Assembly (NCBI GenBank): GCA_012960755.1
Contig: DUAT01000028.1
Coordinates: forward strand, 1-6,880
DNA from: Gammaproteobacteria bacterium
Lineage (GTDB): Bacteria > Pseudomonadota > Gammaproteobacteria > Pseudomonadales > Azotimanducaceae_A
Direction: 5' to 3'
DNA: 6,880 nt
Both the position numbers and the translations under genes were made by a program. The notes below the pieces were generated by a model. The model did no database searches. It was not told the DNA's origin and saw only the letters and a list, made by a program, of their open reading frames with translations. Below, one piece after another: positions 1 through 6,880 of the stretch (its first letter is position 1; every line of letters begins with the position of its first letter).

Positions 1-237
1 ACTCACGCAGACTTTATTGTTAACGCGATCAACGACGCTCTTGGTACGGATTTGCCAGTCTCGTTTTATAACGAGCTTGGAACTGAAACGCTGCGCCTTG
101 AGCACGAATTTAATCGGGCCGCAGGGTTTTCCGATGCGGATGACGACCTTCCCGAGTTCTTTTATGACGAGCCACTGCCACCGATGAATCGGGTCGCACG
201 TTTCCGTGGCGAAGAAGTGAACCGATATCGGGAATAG
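1..237 (+). CDS. Aldehyde ferredoxin oxidoreductase, C-terminal end (5' part outside window)
   Basis: The frame is open from base 1 to a TAG at 235-237 and gives the last 78 residues of a protein that begins before the window. The tail carries the C-terminal signature of the tungsten/molybdenum aldehyde ferredoxin oxidoreductase family, closest in style to the YdhV branch: NAINDALGTDL, then LGTETLRLEHEFNRAAGF, then DDDLPEFF and EPLPP. Family members hold a pterin cofactor and an Fe4S4 cluster and oxidise aldehydes with ferredoxin as acceptor. The cofactor-binding region is not in view, so activity cannot be judged from here. No downstream gene follows closely, so this gene probably ends its transcription unit. 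Its last ~200 bases recur twice further on as relics (4321-4428 and 6322-6524). Family assignment is firm; substrate is unknown. Confidence 0.9.
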   Translation, partial: THADFIVNAINDALGTDLPVSFYNELGTETLRLEHEFNRAAGFSDADDDLPEFFYDEPLPPMNRVARFRGEEVNRYRE

Positions 238-681
238 ACTCTCTGGCTGGTTCTTAACGTAGCGTGGCAAGCGGGCTTGTTCGTGGCTGAGGCATTCAAC
301 AGCGTTGCTTTGAACACGTGAAGGGACTGTTTCACTGACCAGTCCGAGCCGCAACGGTTCAAATCAACATGCTGCGCTCTCACCACTGCGGCACAGATTC
401 AGTGTGCCCGATGGCGGGAGCTTTGCCGATTGTTGCAAGAGGGGGCGGGGTTTTAGCGACCCTGGCACCATACCAGCCGGATTCGGGGAGGTATTACACA
501 GTTGCCGGGCGATTCGACAGCAGTCATTGGCTGTTAGACTTGGGTGAAAAAAGGGATTTTATGCCTCTACACGATCGTTTAAACCCACAAACTAACTAGG
601 TGCAGTGGAGTATAGTTGCTTGGGTGTCGGTAGACTTTCATCAGTGGACATACTGACCAAGTTAATCACAGGAGGGTAAAA
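238..681. other. Intergenic stretch without a convincing gene
   Basis: About 440 nt separate the AOR stop from the protease gene. The only plus-strand open frame of any size is 369-599 (76 codons, ATG start). It has no Shine-Dalgarno sequence ahead of it and I recognise no family, so I treat it as probably non-coding. A 6-bp inverted repeat GGACTG/CAGTCC (324-329 and 340-345, 10-nt loop) lies downstream of the AOR gene but has no following T-run, so it is a poor intrinsic terminator. A TATAGT at 611-616 could be a -10 box for the protease gene but has no good -35 partner. A weak TCAGT/ACTGA repeat lies at 641-656. Only the first ~16 bases after the AOR stop resemble the flanks of the two downstream AOR relics. 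Confidence 0.5.
670..676 (+). promoter_or_regulatory. Ribosome binding site of the protease gene
   Basis: The sequence AGGAGGG is a near-perfect Shine-Dalgarno element about six bases ahead of the ATG at 682. It fixes the start codon and suggests efficient translation. Confidence 0.85.
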
Positions 682-3069
682 ATGAAATTCACTTTATCGA
701 ACAGATTAACGATATCCGCTAATGCATTCGTAGTAGCCTTGCTGTTGACGTTTCCCCCCCTTGTAGTTGTTCCCTTTGCACAGGCCCAGACCGTACTTGG
801 CGAGTTAGAAGCTCGAGCAGCACCGGTTTATCTTCGCCGCTGCGTCGCAGGCAGCAATGCCGGAGACTTATGCAAGCAGACTTCAGAATGCCCAGATTCA
901 TACTGTCCGGACCGCAATGTGTTCAATATACAGGTACAAGTTAATTTCACCGCGACTGCAGCTCAACTTACTTCTATTGAAAGCATGATAACCGCTGGCT
1001 CGGCATCACTATTTGATGCAACGGATGGCCAAGCTGAAATCGGTACTGCTTTTATCTATAACGGTTCGTTAGGAGCAACAGATGCTGATATGCTCATTCA
1101 CCCAACTACCAATCCTGTTTGGTGGTTTGCATCTACGGGTAACTGGCAAGTCGGTGGAGATATGGAAGTAAGTATAAATAATGTAACCACTGCAGTTACT
1201 AATGGTACGGCTGGGCCGATAGTCGCTCACGAATTTATGCACCTGGCATTTGACCCACGGGATGAATACGAAACGAAGGCTGCCAATTGTGGGGCCGACA
1301 ACTGTGGTACTCCGGGAGTGAGTGATTCGTGCTGGTCTTGTCCTGACCCTGCGACTATCGCCGCCGGCGCCACATCATGTTTGATGGATACTAATCCACT
1401 AGGAGCAGAGCTCTGCTGGGGCCAGGCCAATTCGGCCGATCTAAGCGATCTTTCTGGCGGTGACCACGATGCAACCAATGTCACTGAACAGTCCTCGTGC
1501 CGGAGCAGCCGCTCGTGCTGGGATCAGGTTGTCTGGTCTTATCCAAACACAATCCTTATGCCGGTTGGTGCGCCGGATCCAGCAGCGAATGGCGCAATCG
1601 TCAATCCCGTCAATTTTGTTCATCTCTCTACTACCAACCGGGTCGTATTGGTACTCGATGAATCGGGCAGTATGAATGAGGAAGCCCCAACTCGTATGGA
1701 TCGATTACAAGTGGCCGCCAATGATTTTGTAGCCCTGGCTGAAAACGGGACCGAACTAGGTATCGTATCGTTTTCTACCGATGCAGACCCGGCCAATGGC
1801 CATGCGAGTATCGCCATCGCGTCGCTTGGAGCCAATCGTGCCGCGTGGACCAATGCAATCGGCGCACTATCGCCTGGTGGTTCAACCAACATCGGTGGTG
1901 GCTTAGATAAAGCATGGGATATGATAGATACCGCTGGTGGTGTAACGGCTAACACCTATATCGTACTGATGACTGATGGTGTAAACAATCAACCACTGCC
2001 GCAATCGACAGCTGATGCTGACTTGCAGGCAAAGATTGATTTCCTGTTGAGTGCAGGGGTTCCCGTCTATGTCACCTGCACAGGTGGCGACCTGACCCTA
2101 GACTCTCAGTGCGCTGAAATTGGGAATGGAACTGGAGGATTTTACTCAGATTCCGCTGATGCAGCTGCATTACCTCCAGTATTCGCTGCGTTTCACGAAA
2201 AGATCTCAGGCCGGGAAGCTATACATTCAAGATCCGGACAGCTTAGGCACTTCCAGCCGCAGAGAGTATTTGTTGAGAAGGACTCCAATTCTGCGACTTT
2301 CATACTCCAGTGGGACAATCCAAATGCTTCACCTTATCTGCTTGTTATTGACCCCACAGGAACTCCACACAAGTCACTTGAAATGGAGCAAGGTCGTTAT
2401 GTACGCGTTACTAATCCGGTTTCTGGAGACTGGCAAATGATGATTGATCCAGGTGGTGATTCTGAAGGCACATATACAGCAAGCGCTTTCTCGAGTAACT
2501 CGATCCACCGATTTAGGGTTGGAACCCGCTATCCAACCGTTCGACCGGGTGAACCGATTACTCTTTTCGCCCACCCCAAAAGTTATCGCGGACCGGTTAG
2601 CAATCCGGCAAGACCAATATTTGCAATAGTCGAAAAGCCTAATGGGCGCAGAGATCGCCTGATGCTATGGGATCAGGGTCGCAGGCCTGGACGTAAAGGT
2701 GATGACATGGCCGATGATGCTATCTATACTGGTGTCTACACGAATACTCGCCAAAAGGGTGCCTATACGTTTCATATTTACGGAAATATAAACCGCTGGA
2801 GGTCTTCCGGAGATGGCCACAAGATTGATCGGAAAATTAGAAGTGCGCGATTCAATCGAATTGCCACATTATCCGTGGCTGTCAGTGACCCAAAGGATGT
2901 GACAAGAAAATTCGAAGATGATCCAAAAAGCAAACGCGAGCAGACCAAACGGTCTAAATCGAGAAAAACAAAAAGTTCCTCAACCTCTACATTCCCCCCT
3001 AATCAAGTGAGTTATGACGTAGTTGGAAAGGGAAAAACGGTTATGAAATTACGCTCCATCCGGAACTGA
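682..3069 (+). CDS. Exported CLCA-like zinc metalloprotease with VWA domain
   Basis: A 795-residue secreted protein. Residues 1-35 form a signal peptide with a hydrophobic core (15-32) and an AQA|QT cleavage site. A small motif with C54, C64, C70 and C75 follows. The zinc-protease motif HEFMHLAFDPRDEY starts at H183 (H183, E184, H187, with D194/E195 downstream); spacing matches the HExxH...DEY motif of animal CLCA proteins. A segment with eight cysteines spans 203-279. The VWA domain starts near 320 and has a complete metal-ion adhesion site: D326-x-S328-x-S330, T402 and D432 (LMTDG). The C-terminal beta region includes an acidic, glycine-rich motif around 662-686 (WDQG...GDD...DDAIYTGVY), like the end domain of CLCAs. 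Residues 743-764 form a strongly basic tail. CLCA family proteins are secreted metalloproteases, some of which cleave themselves. The gene stands alone, with its own ribosome site and terminator. The target is unknown; surface or periplasmic action is inferred. Confidence 0.88.
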   Translation: MKFTLSNRLTISANAFVVALLLTFPPLVVVPFAQAQTVLGELEARAAPVYLRRCVAGSNAGDLCKQTSECPDSYCPDRNVFNIQVQVNFTATAAQLTSIESMITAGSASLFDATDGQAEIGTAFIYNGSLGATDADMLIHPTTNPVWWFASTGNWQVGGDMEVSINNVTTAVTNGTAGPIVAHEFMHLAFDPRDEYETKAANCGADNCGTPGVSDSCWSCPDPATIAAGATSCLMDTNPLGAELCWGQANSADLSDLSGGDHDATNVTEQSSCRSSRSCWDQVVWSYPNTILMPVGAPDPAANGAIVNPVNFVHLSTTNRVVLVLDESGSMNEEAPTRMDRLQVAANDFVALAENGTELGIVSFSTDADPANGHASIAIASLGANRAAWTNAIGALSPGGSTNIGGGLDKAWDMIDTAGGVTANTYIVLMTDGVNNQPLPQSTADADLQAKIDFLLSAGVPVYVTCTGGDLTLDSQCAEIGNGTGGFYSDSADAAALPPVFAAFHEKISGREAIHSRSGQLRHFQPQRVFVEKDSNSATFILQWDNPNASPYLLVIDPTGTPHKSLEMEQGRYVRVTNPVSGDWQMMIDPGGDSEGTYTASAFSSNSIHRFRVGTRYPTVRPGEPITLFAHPKSYRGPVSNPARPIFAIVEKPNGRRDRLMLWDQGRRPGRKGDDMADDAIYTGVYTNTRQKGAYTFHIYGNINRWRSSGDGHKIDRKIRSARFNRIATLSVAVSDPKDVTRKFEDDPKSKREQTKRSKSRKTKSSSTSTFPPNQVSYDVVGKGKTVMKLRSIRN

Positions 3070-3126
3070 AGTACAACTCATAAGAGAATGGGCAGAACAA
3101 AACCGTTAACTTATTGAAAGGCCCGG

Positions 3127-3158
3127 GCCTCTCTGCTTAACAGCAGAGAGGCTTTTTT
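3127..3158 (+). terminator. Intrinsic terminator of the protease gene
   Basis: A perfect 10-bp stem GCCTCTCTGC/GCAGAGAGGC (3127-3136 and 3143-3152) with loop TTAACA is followed by six Ts (3153-3158). It lies 57 nt after the protease stop codon. The left arm overlaps a 12-bp palindrome AGGCCCGGGCCT (3119-3130), which could form a competing fold. No T-run follows the stem on the minus strand, so it probably does not serve the convergent dsbC gene. Confidence 0.93.
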
Positions 3159-3352
3159 CTGATTAAGACCATCTGTCCTATATTTTCGCTATCTATTTTT
3201 CGTACCCAAAACCGAAGGCCTAGCAAAGCTTGTACAACCCAAAGATAATAAAATCATGGTGATAAAATAACGGCTGTAGTTTTCCTACTGCTCGGCGCGA
3301 AAACTCATTGCCAGAAATAACATTCAACCGAGCATTCGAACTCCCACTATGC
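3159..3352. other. Convergent intergenic region
   Basis: This A/T-rich sequence lies between the protease terminator and the stop codon of the minus-strand dsbC-like gene. I see no gene and no clear intrinsic terminator reading leftward for dsbC. The only candidate is a short GTAG/CTAC hairpin near 3274-3286, without a usable T-run. Confidence 0.4.
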
Positions 3353-4102
3353 TTAATTGAGACCCACTTCCTCTAGCAGCTCACTAACCGCTATATAGTG
3401 AGATATGACTTTCCCATTGTCCAGAACAATCCATGGGGTACCTTTGAGTCCAATATCCTGACCCAATCTGAAATGAGCTGCAACAGGATTGTCGCAATTC
3501 TTCGAGGGTAGTGATTTTCCCCGTTTGGCATCAGTCAGGGCTTGAACTTGATCATCCGCGCACCATACTGAAACCAATCTCTCATAACTCTCTGACTGAA
3601 TACCAGCACCAGGATACAACAGATAGCGCACCTCTAGCCCTGCTCTGTTCAGTTGGCCCACCTCTTCGTGGAAACGTCTGCAAAATACACAGTCAACATC
3701 AGTAAAGACGGTAATGAAACGTTTTGCTTTGGCTGGAGATATAACCAACATCTTGTTCAGAGGCATCGTATCAATGGCTTTCTTAATTAACTGATTCCAC
3801 CTTTCAGCCAGCAAGTAGACATTACGATCTAAATCATAAATGTTACCCATAATGAGGAATCCATCTTGCTTAGCAACATAAAATGCATTCTCGCCAACGG
3901 TAACCAGATAGACGTCTTTTATCGGTGATTTCTCAATGGTTGATGGCTTGATGATTGGCGTCATGCTGTGCAATGCTCTTTCTATCTCTTGAATCCCTTC
4001 ATCAGCACTAACCGATAAGCAAACTAAACTACAGATTATCAGCGATATAGAGTTCTTTACATTCAATCCCGCCAATCGATTTTTGACTAACTTGCGTAGC
4101 AT
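3353..4102 (-). CDS. dsbC: DsbC-type periplasmic thiol:disulfide interchange protein
   Basis: A 249-residue exported disulfide isomerase. A basic N-terminus and hydrophobic stretch (residues 17-31) end in VSA|DE, giving a signal peptide cut after residue 33. The N-terminal part (34-95) matches the DsbC dimerisation domain in size. The thioredoxin-fold domain carries FTDVDCVFC with active-site C138-V-F-C141 (CGYC in E. coli DsbC). A second cysteine pair, C181 and C203, and the cis-proline loop GTPW (P223) follow. Spacings from C138 to C181 (43), C181 to C203 (22) and C138 to P223 (85) equal those of E. coli DsbC. DsbC shuffles wrong disulfides in periplasmic proteins and is kept reduced by DsbD. 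ATG at 4102 is preferred over an in-frame TTG at 4120, because that TTG overlaps the Shine-Dalgarno sequence. The gene is A/T-richer than the amidase (20 G+C of 60 at 3781-3840 against 34 of 60 at 5041-5100). DsbG is the alternative, but the second cysteine pair favours DsbC. Confidence 0.92.
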   Translation of the reverse strand: MLRKLVKNRLAGLNVKNSISLIICSLVCLSVSADEGIQEIERALHSMTPIIKPSTIEKSPIKDVYLVTVGENAFYVAKQDGFLIMGNIYDLDRNVYLLAERWNQLIKKAIDTMPLNKMLVISPAKAKRFITVFTDVDCVFCRRFHEEVGQLNRAGLEVRYLLYPGAGIQSESYERLVSVWCADDQVQALTDAKRGKSLPSKNCDNPVAAHFRLGQDIGLKGTPWIVLDNGKVISHYIAVSELLEEVGLN

Positions 4103-4320
4103 GGTAATTTCCTCACCCAATAAGCGAATACTAGTCGACCCGATTTGACTTAAGATGGGGATCGTTAATTATCGCATACGATATACTAGTAGTGATGGAA
4201 GGGGCTGCATATGGATTTGGCAAGAGATGAATGAATACGGTGGATTGACCTGAGGTTGCGCAGGTGTCTGATCCGATATACCTCGACTTCGCTGATACTT
4301 TCTTCTTCCATTATGTGCAC
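4103..4320. other. Upstream region of dsbC; no gene seen
   Basis: This stretch should hold the dsbC promoter, reading leftward, but I find no convincing -35/-10 pair on the minus strand; a TAGTAT near 4128-4133 is the nearest to a -10 box. ACTAGT occurs twice, at 4130-4135 and 4185-4190. The frame leading into the AOR relic at 4321 stays open from about 4252, but it aligns only very weakly with the AOR residues just before the shared segment, so the relic is taken to begin at 4321. Confidence 0.35.
4111..4117 (-). promoter_or_regulatory. Ribosome binding site deciding the dsbC start
   Basis: On the minus strand GGTGAGG lies eight bases ahead of the ATG at 4102. The in-frame TTG at 4118-4120 abuts this element and would have no ribosome site of its own, so the ATG is the probable start. 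Confidence 0.75.
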
Positions 4321-4428
4321 GACGCTCTTTATCCGGATTTACCAACCTCGTTTGATGACGAGTCACCACCACCGATGAATCGGGTCGCACGTTTCCGTGG
4401 CGAAGAAGTGAACCGGTATCGGGAATAA
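4321..4428 (+). pseudogene. AOR 3'-end relic, copy 2 (internally deleted)
   Basis: Read in frame, this encodes 35 residues running DALYPDLPTSF, then DDESPPPMNRVARFRGEEVN, then RYRE and a TAA stop. It matches the AOR tail at 34-237 minus 32 codons. The missing 96 bp fall between two near-identical short sequences of copy 1 (TTTTATAACGAGC at 64-76 and TTTTATGACGAGC at 160-172), as expected from a slippage or recombination deletion that kept frame. Bases 4369-4415 equal 178-224 of copy 1 without a mismatch (47 nt). No start codon, ribosome site or cofactor domain is present, so it is a gene fragment rather than a gene. Confidence 0.88.
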
Positions 4429-4473
4429 ACTCCTGGCTTGGATTATGGCTTAAAGGGTATTTATTCTTCCTAT
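4429..4473 (+). repeat. Repeated flank downstream of AOR relic, copy A
   Basis: These 45 bases directly after the stop of relic copy 2 align without gaps to 6525-6569, directly after relic copy 3, with 38 of 45 identical, including an unbroken 17-nt core CTTAAAGGGTATTTATT. The sequence after the intact AOR copy (from 238) does not continue this match beyond about 16 bases. The repeat therefore extends past the coding end and marks duplicated AOR-linked DNA. The match stops near 4474, where the rhodanese-coding sequence takes over. Confidence 0.8.
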
Positions 4474-4884
4474 ATTCCAGACAGCCTTGAATCCAGGGCC
4501 GGATATATACCCGGTCCGGCGGGCTTCACGCACCGGACTGCAGAAGAGGTGTTGGAAAAAATCAGGGGAGACAAATTTACGTTTGTACTGATGCCACCTG
4601 ACGGTATTCTCGCTAAGCTCGCTGTCGCCGAGGTTTCTCACCGAGGAGACCTTAAAGTGTGTTCTTTGGATGGTGGTATCGCAGCTTGGACAGATGTGGG
4701 CTATGCCCGTGAATCGGCAGACGATCCGGATACGGGTGAACTGCCAGAGGATATCTGGTACAAACCGTATCAGCAGACCGACGCTATCGAAGAGGCAATG
4801 CATACCTACCTGACCGGGCAGGTCGCTTTGGTTGAGCAAATCGAGCGAGACGGCACCACACGTTTTCTTCACTTTTCCCCCTGA
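4438..4884 (+). pseudogene. C-terminal fragment of a multi-domain rhodanese-like protein
   Basis: An open frame of 148 codons from a TTG, with no Shine-Dalgarno sequence. Residues 1-12 derive from the repeated AOR flank, so the recognisable protein begins near residue 13. The rest resembles the last domain of long proteobacterial proteins with several rhodanese domains: YIPGPAGF (23-30), a loop at 52-56 (MPPDG) where active rhodaneses carry the sulfur-accepting cysteine, LDGGIAAW (77-84), then the tail DIWYKPYQ and LVEQIERDGT. No cysteine is in the loop, so this domain cannot transfer sulfur; the catalytic domain of such proteins lies upstream and is missing here. The stop overlaps the amidase ATG as TGATG. 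It may still be translated as a leader that delivers ribosomes to the amidase. Confidence is high for the family, moderate that it is broken rather than a short working gene. Confidence 0.7.
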
Positions 4885-6224
4885 TGAATCTCCACGAACT
4901 CGGTACCGTTGAAATCGTCAGCGGCCTGAGGGCCCGCCGTTTTTCGGTCGTTGAGCTCGTGCAGGCTCTCTTGGCTCGGATCAGCGATCTAGATCACTTG
5001 CAGGCGTGGGTCCATGTCGATCCTGAAGCGGCGATCGCCCAGGCTCATCGGAAACAAGCTGAACTCGATGCAGGATCCAGTGCACCGCTAATCGGTGTCC
5101 CGACCGGGATTAAGGATATTTTCTACACTGCCGGTGTACCGACTACTGCATGTTCCAAGGTCTATGCGGATTTTGTTCCTAAGCACGATGCCACGACGGT
5201 GGCCCGTCTTCGGGAGGCGGGCGGAATCATGTTGGGCAAGACAGTCACCACCGAGTTTGCCTATCGCGATCCGCCTCCAACCCGCAATCCCTGGAACCTC
5301 AACCATACCCCTGGGGGATCGAGCAGTGGCTCGGCTGCTGCGGTTGCTGCGATGATGTGTCCGACTGCGTTTGGAAGTCAGACACGGGGTTCGGTGCTTC
5401 GACCAGCGTCCTATAACGGCATTGTGGGTCTGAAACCAACTTTCGGGCGGGTGAGTCGGTTCGGGGTCGTGCCTTTGAGTTGGTCTTTGGATCACGTTGG
5501 GTGGATGGCAAGATCAGTTGAAGATGCGGCCCTGATGCTTCAGGTGATGGCTGGTCCAGATACAAACGACCCAACCACCGTGTATGACGACGTACCGGAC
5601 TATTGTGTGGGGATTAAGAATCCAAGTCCACCCCACGTGGGGGTACTACAAGATTATTTTTTTGAAAATGCGGATGAAGATGTGCGTGCCCACACGCAAG
5701 AAGTCATCGAACATCTGTCGCGCGAGGGTGCCAGAGTCGAATATATCGAACTGCCAGAAAGTTTTGAACACGCTATGGCAGATCAATTGATAATCTTAAC
5801 CGTGGAAGCCGCCAACTTTCATGAACCGCTGTTCAAAGAAAAGGCGGACCTTTATGGGCCTAATATACGGGAGCTGGTAGAAACGGGCCTTGCTATCGAT
5901 GCGGTCACCTATTCGCGGGCGTTAGAGAGTCGCGTTCAGTTTATGGCTGATGCTGACAGATTATCGAAGCAGGTACAGGTGCTGTTGACCCCGTCCACGC
6001 CAACGCCAGCACCGGGCGATCTTAACGTCACTGGCAGTGCGATGTTTCAAGGCCCATGGACGTCCACTGGACTACCGACGGTGACGGTGCCTTCGGGACT
6101 TTCTAAAGCCGGCCTCCCTTTGGGAATACAGCTTGTCGCGGCCAGAATGGAAGAGCCCAGATTACTCAGTGCCGCCAGGTGGTGTGAGCAGGTGTTTGGT
6201 AAGATGCCGGCGCCACCTCTGTAG
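4884..6224 (+). CDS. Amidase-signature family hydrolase
   Basis: A 446-residue protein of normal length for the amidase-signature family, which hydrolyses C-N amide bonds with a Ser-cisSer-Lys triad. The lysine is K77 in GVPTGIKDIF, the cis-serine is S146 in GGSSSGSAAA, and the nucleophile is S170 in GSQTRGSVLRPA; the 24-residue spacing between the two serines is that of the family. The motif NGIVGLKPTFGRVSRFG follows. No signal peptide is seen, so it is cytoplasmic. An arginine (R168) occupies a place that is often glycine or alanine before the nucleophilic Gly-Ser. The ATG overlaps the stop of the rhodanese fragment by one base and lacks its own ribosome site, so translation is probably coupled. 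GatA, the tRNA amidotransferase subunit, is unlikely: there are no GatB or GatC neighbours, and the oxyanion motif GSQT differs from GTDTGGS. Substrate is unknown. Confidence 0.9.
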   Translation: MNLHELGTVEIVSGLRARRFSVVELVQALLARISDLDHLQAWVHVDPEAAIAQAHRKQAELDAGSSAPLIGVPTGIKDIFYTAGVPTTACSKVYADFVPKHDATTVARLREAGGIMLGKTVTTEFAYRDPPPTRNPWNLNHTPGGSSSGSAAAVAAMMCPTAFGSQTRGSVLRPASYNGIVGLKPTFGRVSRFGVVPLSWSLDHVGWMARSVEDAALMLQVMAGPDTNDPTTVYDDVPDYCVGIKNPSPPHVGVLQDYFFENADEDVRAHTQEVIEHLSREGARVEYIELPESFEHAMADQLIILTVEAANFHEPLFKEKADLYGPNIRELVETGLAIDAVTYSRALESRVQFMADADRLSKQVQVLLTPSTPTPAPGDLNVTGSAMFQGPWTSTGLPTVTVPSGLSKAGLPLGIQLVAARMEEPRLLSAARWCEQVFGKMPAPPL

Positions 6225-6321
6225 ATTTAAAGTCCGTCAGGTTCACTCAGAGTTACTTTCAGGAAATTGTTTATAAGCGACGGCGATTCCGCACGTATCA
6301 ATGTGCTGATTTCCTTACCGC
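6225..6321. other. Short spacer after the amidase
   Basis: About 100 nt between the amidase stop and AOR relic copy 3. I see no terminator with a T-run and no open frame of note. Confidence 0.4.
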
Positions 6322-6524
6322 GACACTCTTGGTACGGATTAATAAACCTCGTTTTATAGCCAACTGGGAAATGAAGCGTCGCGTCTTGAGTACGAATTCA
6401 ATCGGGCCGCAAGGCTTTGCGATTGGGATGATGACCTTCCCGAGTTGTTTAGAGCGAGCTACTTCTGCCAGTGAATTGGGTCACACGTTTTCGTGGCGAA
6501 AAAGTAAACCTGTGTCCGCAATAG
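6322..6524 (+). pseudogene. AOR 3'-end relic, copy 3 (frameshifted, stop codons)
   Basis: The sequence aligns along its length to the AOR 3' end at 34-237. Over the first 126 bases I count 25 mismatches and no gaps (about 80% identity). In the AOR frame it reads DTLGTD, two stop codons, then TSFYSQLGNEASRLEYEFNR, AA and DDDLPELF before further stops; a one-base loss near 6447-6452 shifts the frame. It lacks the 96-bp deletion of copy 2, so copy 3 did not come from copy 2 in its present form. It is clearly dead and older than copy 2. The equivalent of the AOR stop is TAG at 6522-6524, followed by the shared flank. Confidence 0.9.
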
Positions 6525-6569
6525 ACTCCTGACTCGAATTTTGACTTAAAGGGTATTTATTTTCCCTAT
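6525..6569 (+). repeat. Repeated flank downstream of AOR relic, copy B
   Basis: This is the partner of 4429-4473 (38 of 45 identical, gapless). Here it contains an 8-bp inverted repeat AAGGGTAT/ATACCCTT (6549-6556 and 6568-6575, 11-nt loop), which is broken in copy A. It may be the decayed hairpin that once followed the AOR gene; no T-run follows, so it is not a standard intrinsic terminator. Confidence 0.78.
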
Positions 6570-6820
6570 ACCCTTACACGACGGTTGCGCGAGGGTGCCG
6601 GGTCAAATCCCGGCATTGCGCTGACAGTCGCTCGCAATGACGCGGCACTGGGTCTTTTTAACGGGGCATCGGGGTTGTGATTCAAGACAGAAGTGCGCCT
6701 GACTTCCTGGAGTCTGTGTTTTTAGATGCCAACAATCACTGGCCGAACCTCAAACCGATGCTTTGTGCCGTGCCAGTTACCGCCGCCAGTCGACCTGTCA
6801 GATCTATCTGATTCATAGAT
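6570..6820. other. Intergenic region, only a 44-codon open frame
   Basis: No recognisable gene. A GTG-started frame at 6677-6811 gives 44 residues (including FLDANNHWPNLKPML), without a Shine-Dalgarno sequence. It could be a protein scrap or chance; I do not recognise it. The left part holds the hairpins described separately. Confidence 0.35.
6597..6640. repeat. Double-hairpin repeat resembling the CGTCATTGCGA intergenic family
   Basis: There are two adjacent stems. GCCGGG/CCCGGC (6597-6602 and 6609-6614) has loop TCAAAT. CATTGCG/CGCAATG (6614-6620 and 6633-6639) has a 12-nt loop. The right end read on the minus strand is CGTCATTGCGAGCGACTGTC, whose start matches the core seen in many dispersed palindromic intergenic repeats of bacteria. 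Only one copy is present in the window, so membership of a genome-wide family is inferred. Confidence 0.45.
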
Positions 6821-6859
6821 TAATAACCTTGGCTATAATAACCTTGCTTATTATTAGCC
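6821..6859. promoter_or_regulatory. Candidate promoter/operator: TATAAT within direct and inverted repeats
   Basis: TAATAACCTTG occurs twice, at 6821-6831 and 6836-6846, with a 15-base period. An overlapping imperfect inverted repeat pairs GGCTATAATAA (6831-6841) with TTATTATTAGCC (6848-6859) around loop CCTTGC, with one bulged base. A perfect TATAAT lies at 6834-6839, but the -35 region (around 6811-6816, ATTCAT) is poor. The arrangement fits a regulated promoter for a gene beyond the right edge; this is inference. Confidence 0.35.
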
Positions 6860-6880
6860 AGCCTACTACATGATTGCCAT

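Follow-up and report, generated by a model that had tools for sequence, protein, structure and literature searches.

The window analysed here, a stretch of 6,880 nucleotides at the start of contig DUAT01000028.1 (assembly GCA_012960755.1, Gammaproteobacteria bacterium), begins within the 3′ end of an AOR gene and closes on the first bases of a MarR-family gene. Between these two genes lie two blocks of unrelated genes, separated and then bounded by degenerate AOR tails on the same strand (Table 1). Each of the three AOR tails is followed, in the same orientation, by sequence assigned to the 3′ end of an ISCR element, and the two relics share one left edge (CGAC, AOR base 33) and one right edge (oriIS). 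Judged from these sequence features, the cargo was probably captured and stacked behind AOR by an ISCR-type one-ended rolling-circle element, with the AOR tail as the duplicated anchor.

Table 1. Features of the window, with the evidence for each assignment
Feature	Position	Strand	Evidence
AOR gene 3′ end (copy 1), last 78 codons and stop	1..237	+	Pfam AFOR_C, E 4e-5 (below cut-off); 99% amino acid identity to L001
Predicted ISCR 3′ remnant behind AOR, decayed oriIS at about 543-580	238..580	+	match to ISCR2 3′ end; dispersed repeat in relatives
Cargo block 1 (left edge approximate)	581..4319		near-absence of matches in family and order genomes
CLCA-like VWA protein, 795 amino acids, frame intact	682..3069	+	Pfam; NCBIfam hCaCC below cut-off
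dsbC	3353..4120	-	Pfam DsbC_N and Thioredoxin_2; NCBIfam PRK10877 below cut-off
AOR tail-oriIS unit, copy 2, CGAC left edge, 96-bp in-frame deletion	4320..4477	+	window self-BLASTN
Predicted ISCR-type oriIS of copy 2	4453..4475	+	2 mismatches to motif; 91% to ISCR2 end, E 0.002
Cargo block 2, rhodanese-amidase-CaiB locus fragment	4478..6320 (homology 4478-6315)		collinear with G026, G027 and G024
Rhodanese gene, last quarter, cut at oriIS end	4478..4884	+	alignment to 532-amino-acid rhodanese
Amidase, intact	4884..6224	+	Pfam; dN/dS 0.15 versus L002
CaiB-type CoA-transferase, about the last 22 codons and 3′ flank	6225..6320	-	homology to the locus of relatives
AOR tail-oriIS unit, copy 3, CGAC left edge	6321..6572	+	window self-BLASTN; left junction also in L002
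Predicted ISCR-type oriIS of copy 3	6549..6571	+	3 mismatches to motif; 83% to ISCR2 end, E 0.32
MarR-family gene, first bases; right flank of the variable site	6870..6880	+	6773-6880 100% identical to L001, where the open reading frame continues

According to the preliminary description of this DNA, two further copies of the AOR 3′ end are present, all on one strand. A BLASTN comparison of the window with itself confirmed this and carried the right limits of the duplicated unit past the stop codon, to about 4477 (copy 2) and 6572 (copy 3), beyond those first given. All matches are on the same strand: AOR 33-241 with 6321-6528 (78.5%, E 2e-44), AOR 160-248 with 4351-4438 (92%, E 7e-31), AOR 32-75 with 4319-4362 (82%, E 2e-6), and 4376-4474 of copy 2 with 6472-6570 of copy 3 (83%, E 8e-24). 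The first two E values, obtained in a 6.9-kb search, place the repeats beyond chance. In copy 2, 96 bp have been deleted in frame between 12-bp repeats (AOR 64-75 and 160-171), shifting the offset to AOR from 4287 to 4191. The relics had also been said to start at nearly the same point of the gene, and in both the left edge falls at AOR base 33, with the letters CGAC. Copies 2 and 3 stay alike for about 45 bp past the AOR stop codon, and their oriIS lies 24 bp behind that stop. It is conceivable, though quite improbable, that there was a single capture and that gene conversion, or recombination of the ordinary kind, then produced copy 2 from copy 3 or the reverse; in that case the left edge would not reflect a repeated choice of stopping point. 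The copies do share the left edge and a short 3′ region devoid of the ISCR body; however, in the parts compared, copy 2 is more similar to AOR (92%) than to copy 3 (83%), which would be expected if each relic had come from AOR separately, although unequal decay or conversion could mimic this difference.

Behind AOR copy 1, at about 241-562, there is a repeat that is dispersed among relatives and has AAGGGYGTTTATYCTTCCTATAC as its right end. Within the window this motif was found at two sites, 4453-4475 and 6549-6571, where copies 2 and 3 respectively end on the right; none of 200 shuffles contained a match. In pattern searches of relatives, with 2 and 3 mismatches permitted, 5 of 20 genus genomes had the motif, at 12 sites in all, and 10 of 33 family genomes had it, at 18 sites; the reversed control gave none in either set. 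Three sites with 3 mismatches (G001:C112, G002:C210, G021:C32), near-identical to one another, may lie outside the motif family. Repeat copies elsewhere have a constant right end and match leftwards over 29 to about 350 bp; the pattern of one-ended mobilisation, with a constant right and a variable left end, is thus present in the form of alignment limits, not as an observed event. A hidden Markov model of the repeat family, built with the window copy included, matches 235-561.

From its sequence relationships, the dispersed repeat is identified as the 3′ end of an ISCR2-like element, its right end corresponding to oriIS, because (i) the longest clade copy encodes the C-terminus of an ISCR2-type transposase and (ii) a plasmid match sits behind the open reading frame (ORF) of an ISCR clade Ia transposase. 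The former (G010:C48, L072) is a broken C-terminus with 59% identity over 121 columns (E 5e-32). As to the latter, four IMG/VR contigs hold the exact motif and carry ISCR2-type ends. Matches to the repeat occur in five phage records, and a 178-bp piece of it matches 2,913 of 72,556 plasmid records, most of them (2,893) at 60-80% identity; in the 20 best of those listed the identity is 72-76% over 96% of the query. In plasmid record L176 an ORF stops 64 bp ahead of the match, and the C-terminal part of this ORF reads the same as an ORF of contig L175. The L175 ORF matches the NCBIfam model NF052416 (ISCR element clade Ia transposase) with E 4e-103, a partial match under the full-length cut-off; its match to the IS91 transposase model is weaker. 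Aligned directly, the ISCR2 3′ end matches the window at 323-562 (66.5%, E 5e-11), 4452-4474 (91%, E 0.002) and 6548-6571 (83%, E 0.32), so that the oriIS right end typical of ISCR/IS91 elements is present, that of copy 3 being weak when taken alone. ISCR2, of ISCR clade Ia, is the nearest relative found both of the oriIS end and of the transposase C-terminus (59-77%). The copies in the clade are diverged and mostly truncated, whereas in the inspected plasmid record the element adjoins tet(X). The preliminary description had regarded the process as one it did not recognise, but since each tail ends in an ISCR/IS91-type oriIS, it would be of a recognisable kind.

Two other readings of the repeat were discarded. 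A structured RNA found no Rfam match in the window, five loci gave only rRNA, and on folding one of six copies stood out against shuffles (z -2.9), one reached -1.6 and four were ordinary; the repeat is instead assigned to the ISCR 3′ end. A promoter or coding role of the motif (frame KGVYSSYTP) was set aside as well, the right flanks diverging directly after the motif and the frames being broken around most of the copies shown.

No transposase or integrase was detected among the five window proteins scanned with Pfam, as had been noted at the outset, and an ISCR2 transposase piece gave no tblastn match in the window at E ≤ 10. The HUH (Y2) transposase gene found inside ISCR/IS91 elements is thereby missing from those five proteins. 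In the family, ISCR-clade transposase pieces occur in three of the 33 genomes (G001, G018 and G029); those inspected are partial or broken, one of the two in G001 and that of G018 run into the contig end, and the G001 piece reaches 160 bits with NF052416, under the full-length cut-off of 925. Islands at tRNA or guaA genes duplicate the gene tail through a site-specific integrase, and islands so inserted at the AOR 3′ end would likewise leave same-strand duplicated gene ends beside cargo. Such an origin is nevertheless very unlikely: no integrase or other recombinase gene near the AOR 3′ end is among the five scanned proteins (the ORF lists of relatives were not scanned systematically), the cargo begins and ends mid-gene, and the shared end is an ISCR oriIS, which is present beside other genes too. 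A search for the AOR tail in virus contigs returned 22 stretches matching a pattern, none of which encodes a relative.

A relative of the AOR tail is encoded at 34 loci of the genome collection, of which the three best (L001-L003) are from metagenome-assembled genomes, with 94-99% amino acid identity; two are labelled Acidiferrobacteraceae and one Gammaproteobacteria, and the clade is presumably marine, judging from isolate names. The closest-compared named genomes are likewise metagenome assemblies in many contigs. The genes to the left of AOR are common to all three loci, and a MarR-EmrA pair stands on the right in L001 and L002, the contig of L003 stopping earlier. Between AOR and MarR, L001 carries a piece of an iron-containing alcohol dehydrogenase, TRAP transporter genes and a gene of the short-chain dehydrogenase/reductase family, whereas in L002 nothing more is present there than the end of the rhodanese gene, the amidase and the beginning of tail copy 3. 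The interval is therefore variable among close relatives. In L001 the DNA to the right of an intact oriIS starts with the alcohol dehydrogenase piece, a weak assignment covering 33 of 168 Pfam positions (E 0.005, under the curated cut-off).

A search of relatives for further AOR tails and empty sites, proposed with the preliminary description, was productive in part. A degenerate AOR tail adjoins MarR in G018; relative to the first base of the window, it starts about 8 bases earlier and extends to 132 bases beyond. L002, in turn, lacks block 1. L002 was considered as a clean empty site for block 1, AOR there joining the rhodanese end directly, and was rejected: the join is itself a deletion, so that block 1 may have been lost. 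A stacking order with the newest block next to AOR is probable; it fits because copy 3 is the most diverged and farthest from AOR, and because L002 lacks block 1 while possessing block 2 and, of copy 3, the left part. The deletion at this critical place in L002 speaks against a firm order, which stays probable rather than demonstrated.

By DNA search, AOR of this type is present once in each of seven of the eight handled genomes and absent from the eighth, and no genus member of the 20 has more than one. More distant loci (L004-L008) have a second AOR about 2-3.5 kb downstream of the first, with 27-28% protein identity; at that identity it is no source of a 92% DNA match. Recombination among many AOR paralogues, one of the causes proposed earlier, is consequently not supported. 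The same counts bear on the possibility that three complete tandem AOR genes were eroded in place, named earlier as the finding that would overturn the idea of a duplicated unit, or that the arrangement is an assembly artefact. Decay does rise rightwards, as erosion might produce. Both explanations are, however, barely credible, given that the DNA to the left of copy 3 belongs to a CaiB locus and not to AOR, that there is at most one AOR of this type per genome, that the copies differ by 8-22% and cannot result from collapse of identical reads, and that L002 independently has the left junction of copy 3.

The blocks had been described as a CLCA-like protease with dsbC and a rhodanese fragment with an amidase, and these contents were borne out by Pfam and NCBIfam matches and, for the rhodanese fragment, which has no Pfam match of its own, by alignment to a 532-amino-acid rhodanese. 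Block 2 can be traced to a donor-type locus. Positions 4478-6315 are collinear with a single stretch in each of G026 (83.9%) and G027 (81.8%), and in G024 the homology falls into two adjoining pieces, 118 bp of the window being absent there. In G027 the 532-amino-acid rhodanese, which has four Pfam stretches, is followed by the amidase and then by a CaiB-type CoA-transferase in the opposite orientation. Block 2 corresponds to an uninterrupted 1.84 kb of this locus, cut inside both outer genes at the edges of the tail units: at the left junction the last quarter of the rhodanese begins no more than 3 bases from the end of the oriIS motif, and at the right junction, after about the last 22 CaiB codons, similarity ends about 6 bases before CGAC. 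The latter junction, which is the left junction of copy 3, is common to L002. The amidase is intact and apparently still under purifying selection, since its dN/dS is 0.15 against L002 and 0.12 against G027.

For block 1 no donor was found in the genomes compared. The 33 family genomes gave no match to it save weak ones to dsbC, and in the order 3 of 109 genomes matched, inside dsbC only, with two candidates scored per genome. The CLCA-like protein matches NCBIfam hCaCC (E 5e-17, below cut-off), has a VWA domain and, by eye, an HEFMH stretch. Among the 120 matches listed of 270 there is a full-length relative with 94% identity (P0001, a cluster of 29 member sequences).

IS91-type elements replicate from oriIS towards terIS and, when terIS is missed or missing, run into the DNA beyond. 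On this basis the arrangement would have arisen as follows, the order and chemistry of the steps being inferred. An ISCR-type rolling-circle element would once have stood directly behind AOR, and its left part, with terIS, would have been lost. With transposase provided in trans, replication would start at oriIS and, in the absence of terIS, proceed leftwards into the AOR tail and stop at CGAC, yielding a tail-oriIS unit that inserts elsewhere. In a second round, replication would run leftwards from the oriIS of that unit into the adjoining DNA and halt inside a gene. The product, composed of cargo, tail and oriIS, would then go back behind AOR, either as a circle recombining with the AOR tail or by one-ended insertion at the resident oriIS. 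The outcome would be the order AOR - oriIS - cargo - tail - oriIS, and repeated events would stack cargo with one extra tail per event. The ISCR body behind copy 1 is lacking in both relics, which speaks for an exchange near oriIS itself. The cause favoured in the preliminary description, repeated insertion at the AOR 3′ end by an element that restores the gene tail, thus holds as regards cargo stacking, but nothing restores the tail: AOR retains its own, and the extra tails look like passengers.

Both ends of the proposed unit have counterparts in IS801. According to PMC3189936, laboratory entrapment of that element recovered fragments that all had the same right end, as well as parts of the oxidoreductase gene upstream of it, with left ends at GAAC-like tetranucleotides, CGAC being in the target set. 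The window resembles this one-ended transposition of the IS801/IS91 type in its constant right end, its CGAC left end and its upstream oxidoreductase gene pieces. The differences are that IS801 was caught by an entrapment experiment whereas the present case is read from sequence, and that the element here is ISCR-like and may have a left-end preference of its own. The authors of PMC3189936 judge that most genomic IS801 fragments look like rearrangements and not like one-ended transposition.

Several points weigh against capture and stacking by an ISCR-type element. The CGAC argument is one AOR position used twice, and 4 of 234 positions in the AOR stretch carry one of the four IS801 tetranucleotides; the left end of block 2 is not among them. 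The AOR relic of G018 (G018:C22, L166, near a contig end) has another left edge than copies 2 and 3, so their common edge is not a general rule for relics. Absence of the ISCR body from both relics calls for an extra deletion or a second insertion. The oriIS of copy 3 is, by itself, weak against ISCR2 (E 0.32), and both window motifs agree at 16 of 22 positions with the ISCR1 oriIS printed in PMC13023784, a comparison not relied on, as the best of 30 shuffles is equal. The window holds no transposase by either search, Pfam on five proteins or tblastn with the ISCR2 piece, and no terIS was seen in it, no search with a terIS model having been made. Tail-oriIS units were not encountered anywhere but at the AOR-MarR site. 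Finally, according to PMC6218425, ISCR transposition was without experimental proof at that date.

Some of these points would suit an alternative in which the oriIS ends are bystanders: foreign fragments, taken up as DNA for instance, would have become joined to the AOR region through recombination, either illegitimate or assisted by homology, with AOR tails duplicated as a by-product and ISCR remnants marking a fragile intergenic site. The lack of a transposase in the window agrees with this, as do the mid-gene ends of block 2, expected of random breaks, its left end outside the IS801 tetranucleotides, and the plain deletion at the same place in L002. The alternative is nonetheless unlikely, because the two copies, whose neighbours differ, agree in both unit edges, oriIS marks the right edge every time, and the content of L001 also switches directly after an intact oriIS.

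Capture by an ISCR-type element has its closest analogue in the complex class 1 integrons formed with ISCR1. For these, PMC13023784 proposes that a circle from one-ended transposition recombined into the sul1 segment, accounting for partial duplicates and tandem stacks. Both systems show a same-orientation gene-tail duplicate beside captured DNA with oriIS as the constant end, and the partial anchor duplicate beside ISCR-linked cargo is present in the window with the AOR tail replacing sul1. According to PMC6218425, ISCR1 lies 24 bp behind sul1, which compares with the 24 bp between the AOR stop and oriIS in the relics. Unlike those integrons, the window has a chromosomal metabolic gene as anchor and metabolic and secreted-protein genes as cargo, with no integron or resistance gene seen and no transposase. 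Specifically, intI1, attI and the qacEΔ1-sul1 segment are not represented among the five Pfam-scanned window proteins, no dedicated search having been made.

The literature found treats ISCR elements mostly as vehicles of resistance genes, and among the openly licensed PMC papers listed there was none that described stacking by ISCR oriIS ends in Acidiferrobacteraceae or behind a metabolic gene of a chromosome. The locus would preserve a likely series of captures in an apparently natural chromosome without drug-resistance cargo in view, together with a donor-type locus, both junctions and a relative without block 1. It offers a test bed for how strongly ordinary genomes are shaped by one-ended transposition, and suggests that a duplicated gene tail next to cargo can be readable as an ISCR footprint even where no transposase is visible.

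Stacking between oriIS ends may not be confined to AOR. Five genomes have at least two motif sites, and in three of them (G002, G010 and G019) a same-strand oriIS pair lies 3-4.7 kb apart; random placement of the sites from the two pattern searches, further weaker sites not being included, yields such pairs in 1.2%, 3.0% and 0.16% of trials, respectively. A wider proposal is possible but doubtful: in this family of probably marine Gammaproteobacteria, solitary ISCR2-like oriIS ends may be permanent chromosomal sites at which DNA is captured and lands. Given a transposase acting in trans, they would repeatedly collect fragments and stack them behind a host gene such as AOR, and metabolic genes would thereby be exchanged between species. 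This would be an ISCR analogue of the integron array, perhaps older than the ISCR systems of resistance plasmids and feeding them.

Two of the oriIS pairs were inspected individually. In G002:C214 (L070, 29-4208) a 4.15-kb block lies between same-strand oriIS ends sharing 55 identical bases, and its ORFs appear by eye to be sterol-desaturase-like, GcvT-like and an aldehyde dehydrogenase. A length of 55 is a common assembly word length, and one copy stands at the very contig start, so this pair may be an assembly overlap. In G019:C96 (L071, 2598-7298) a further block is enclosed by two same-strand oriIS ends, and the methylpurine-DNA glycosylase gene that abuts the left one covers no more than 51 of 181 Pfam positions. 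A second dispersed repeat occupies 6607-6731 of the window, to the right of copy 3, with matches of 73-78% in G002:C188, G003:C19, G018:C314 and G021:C207.

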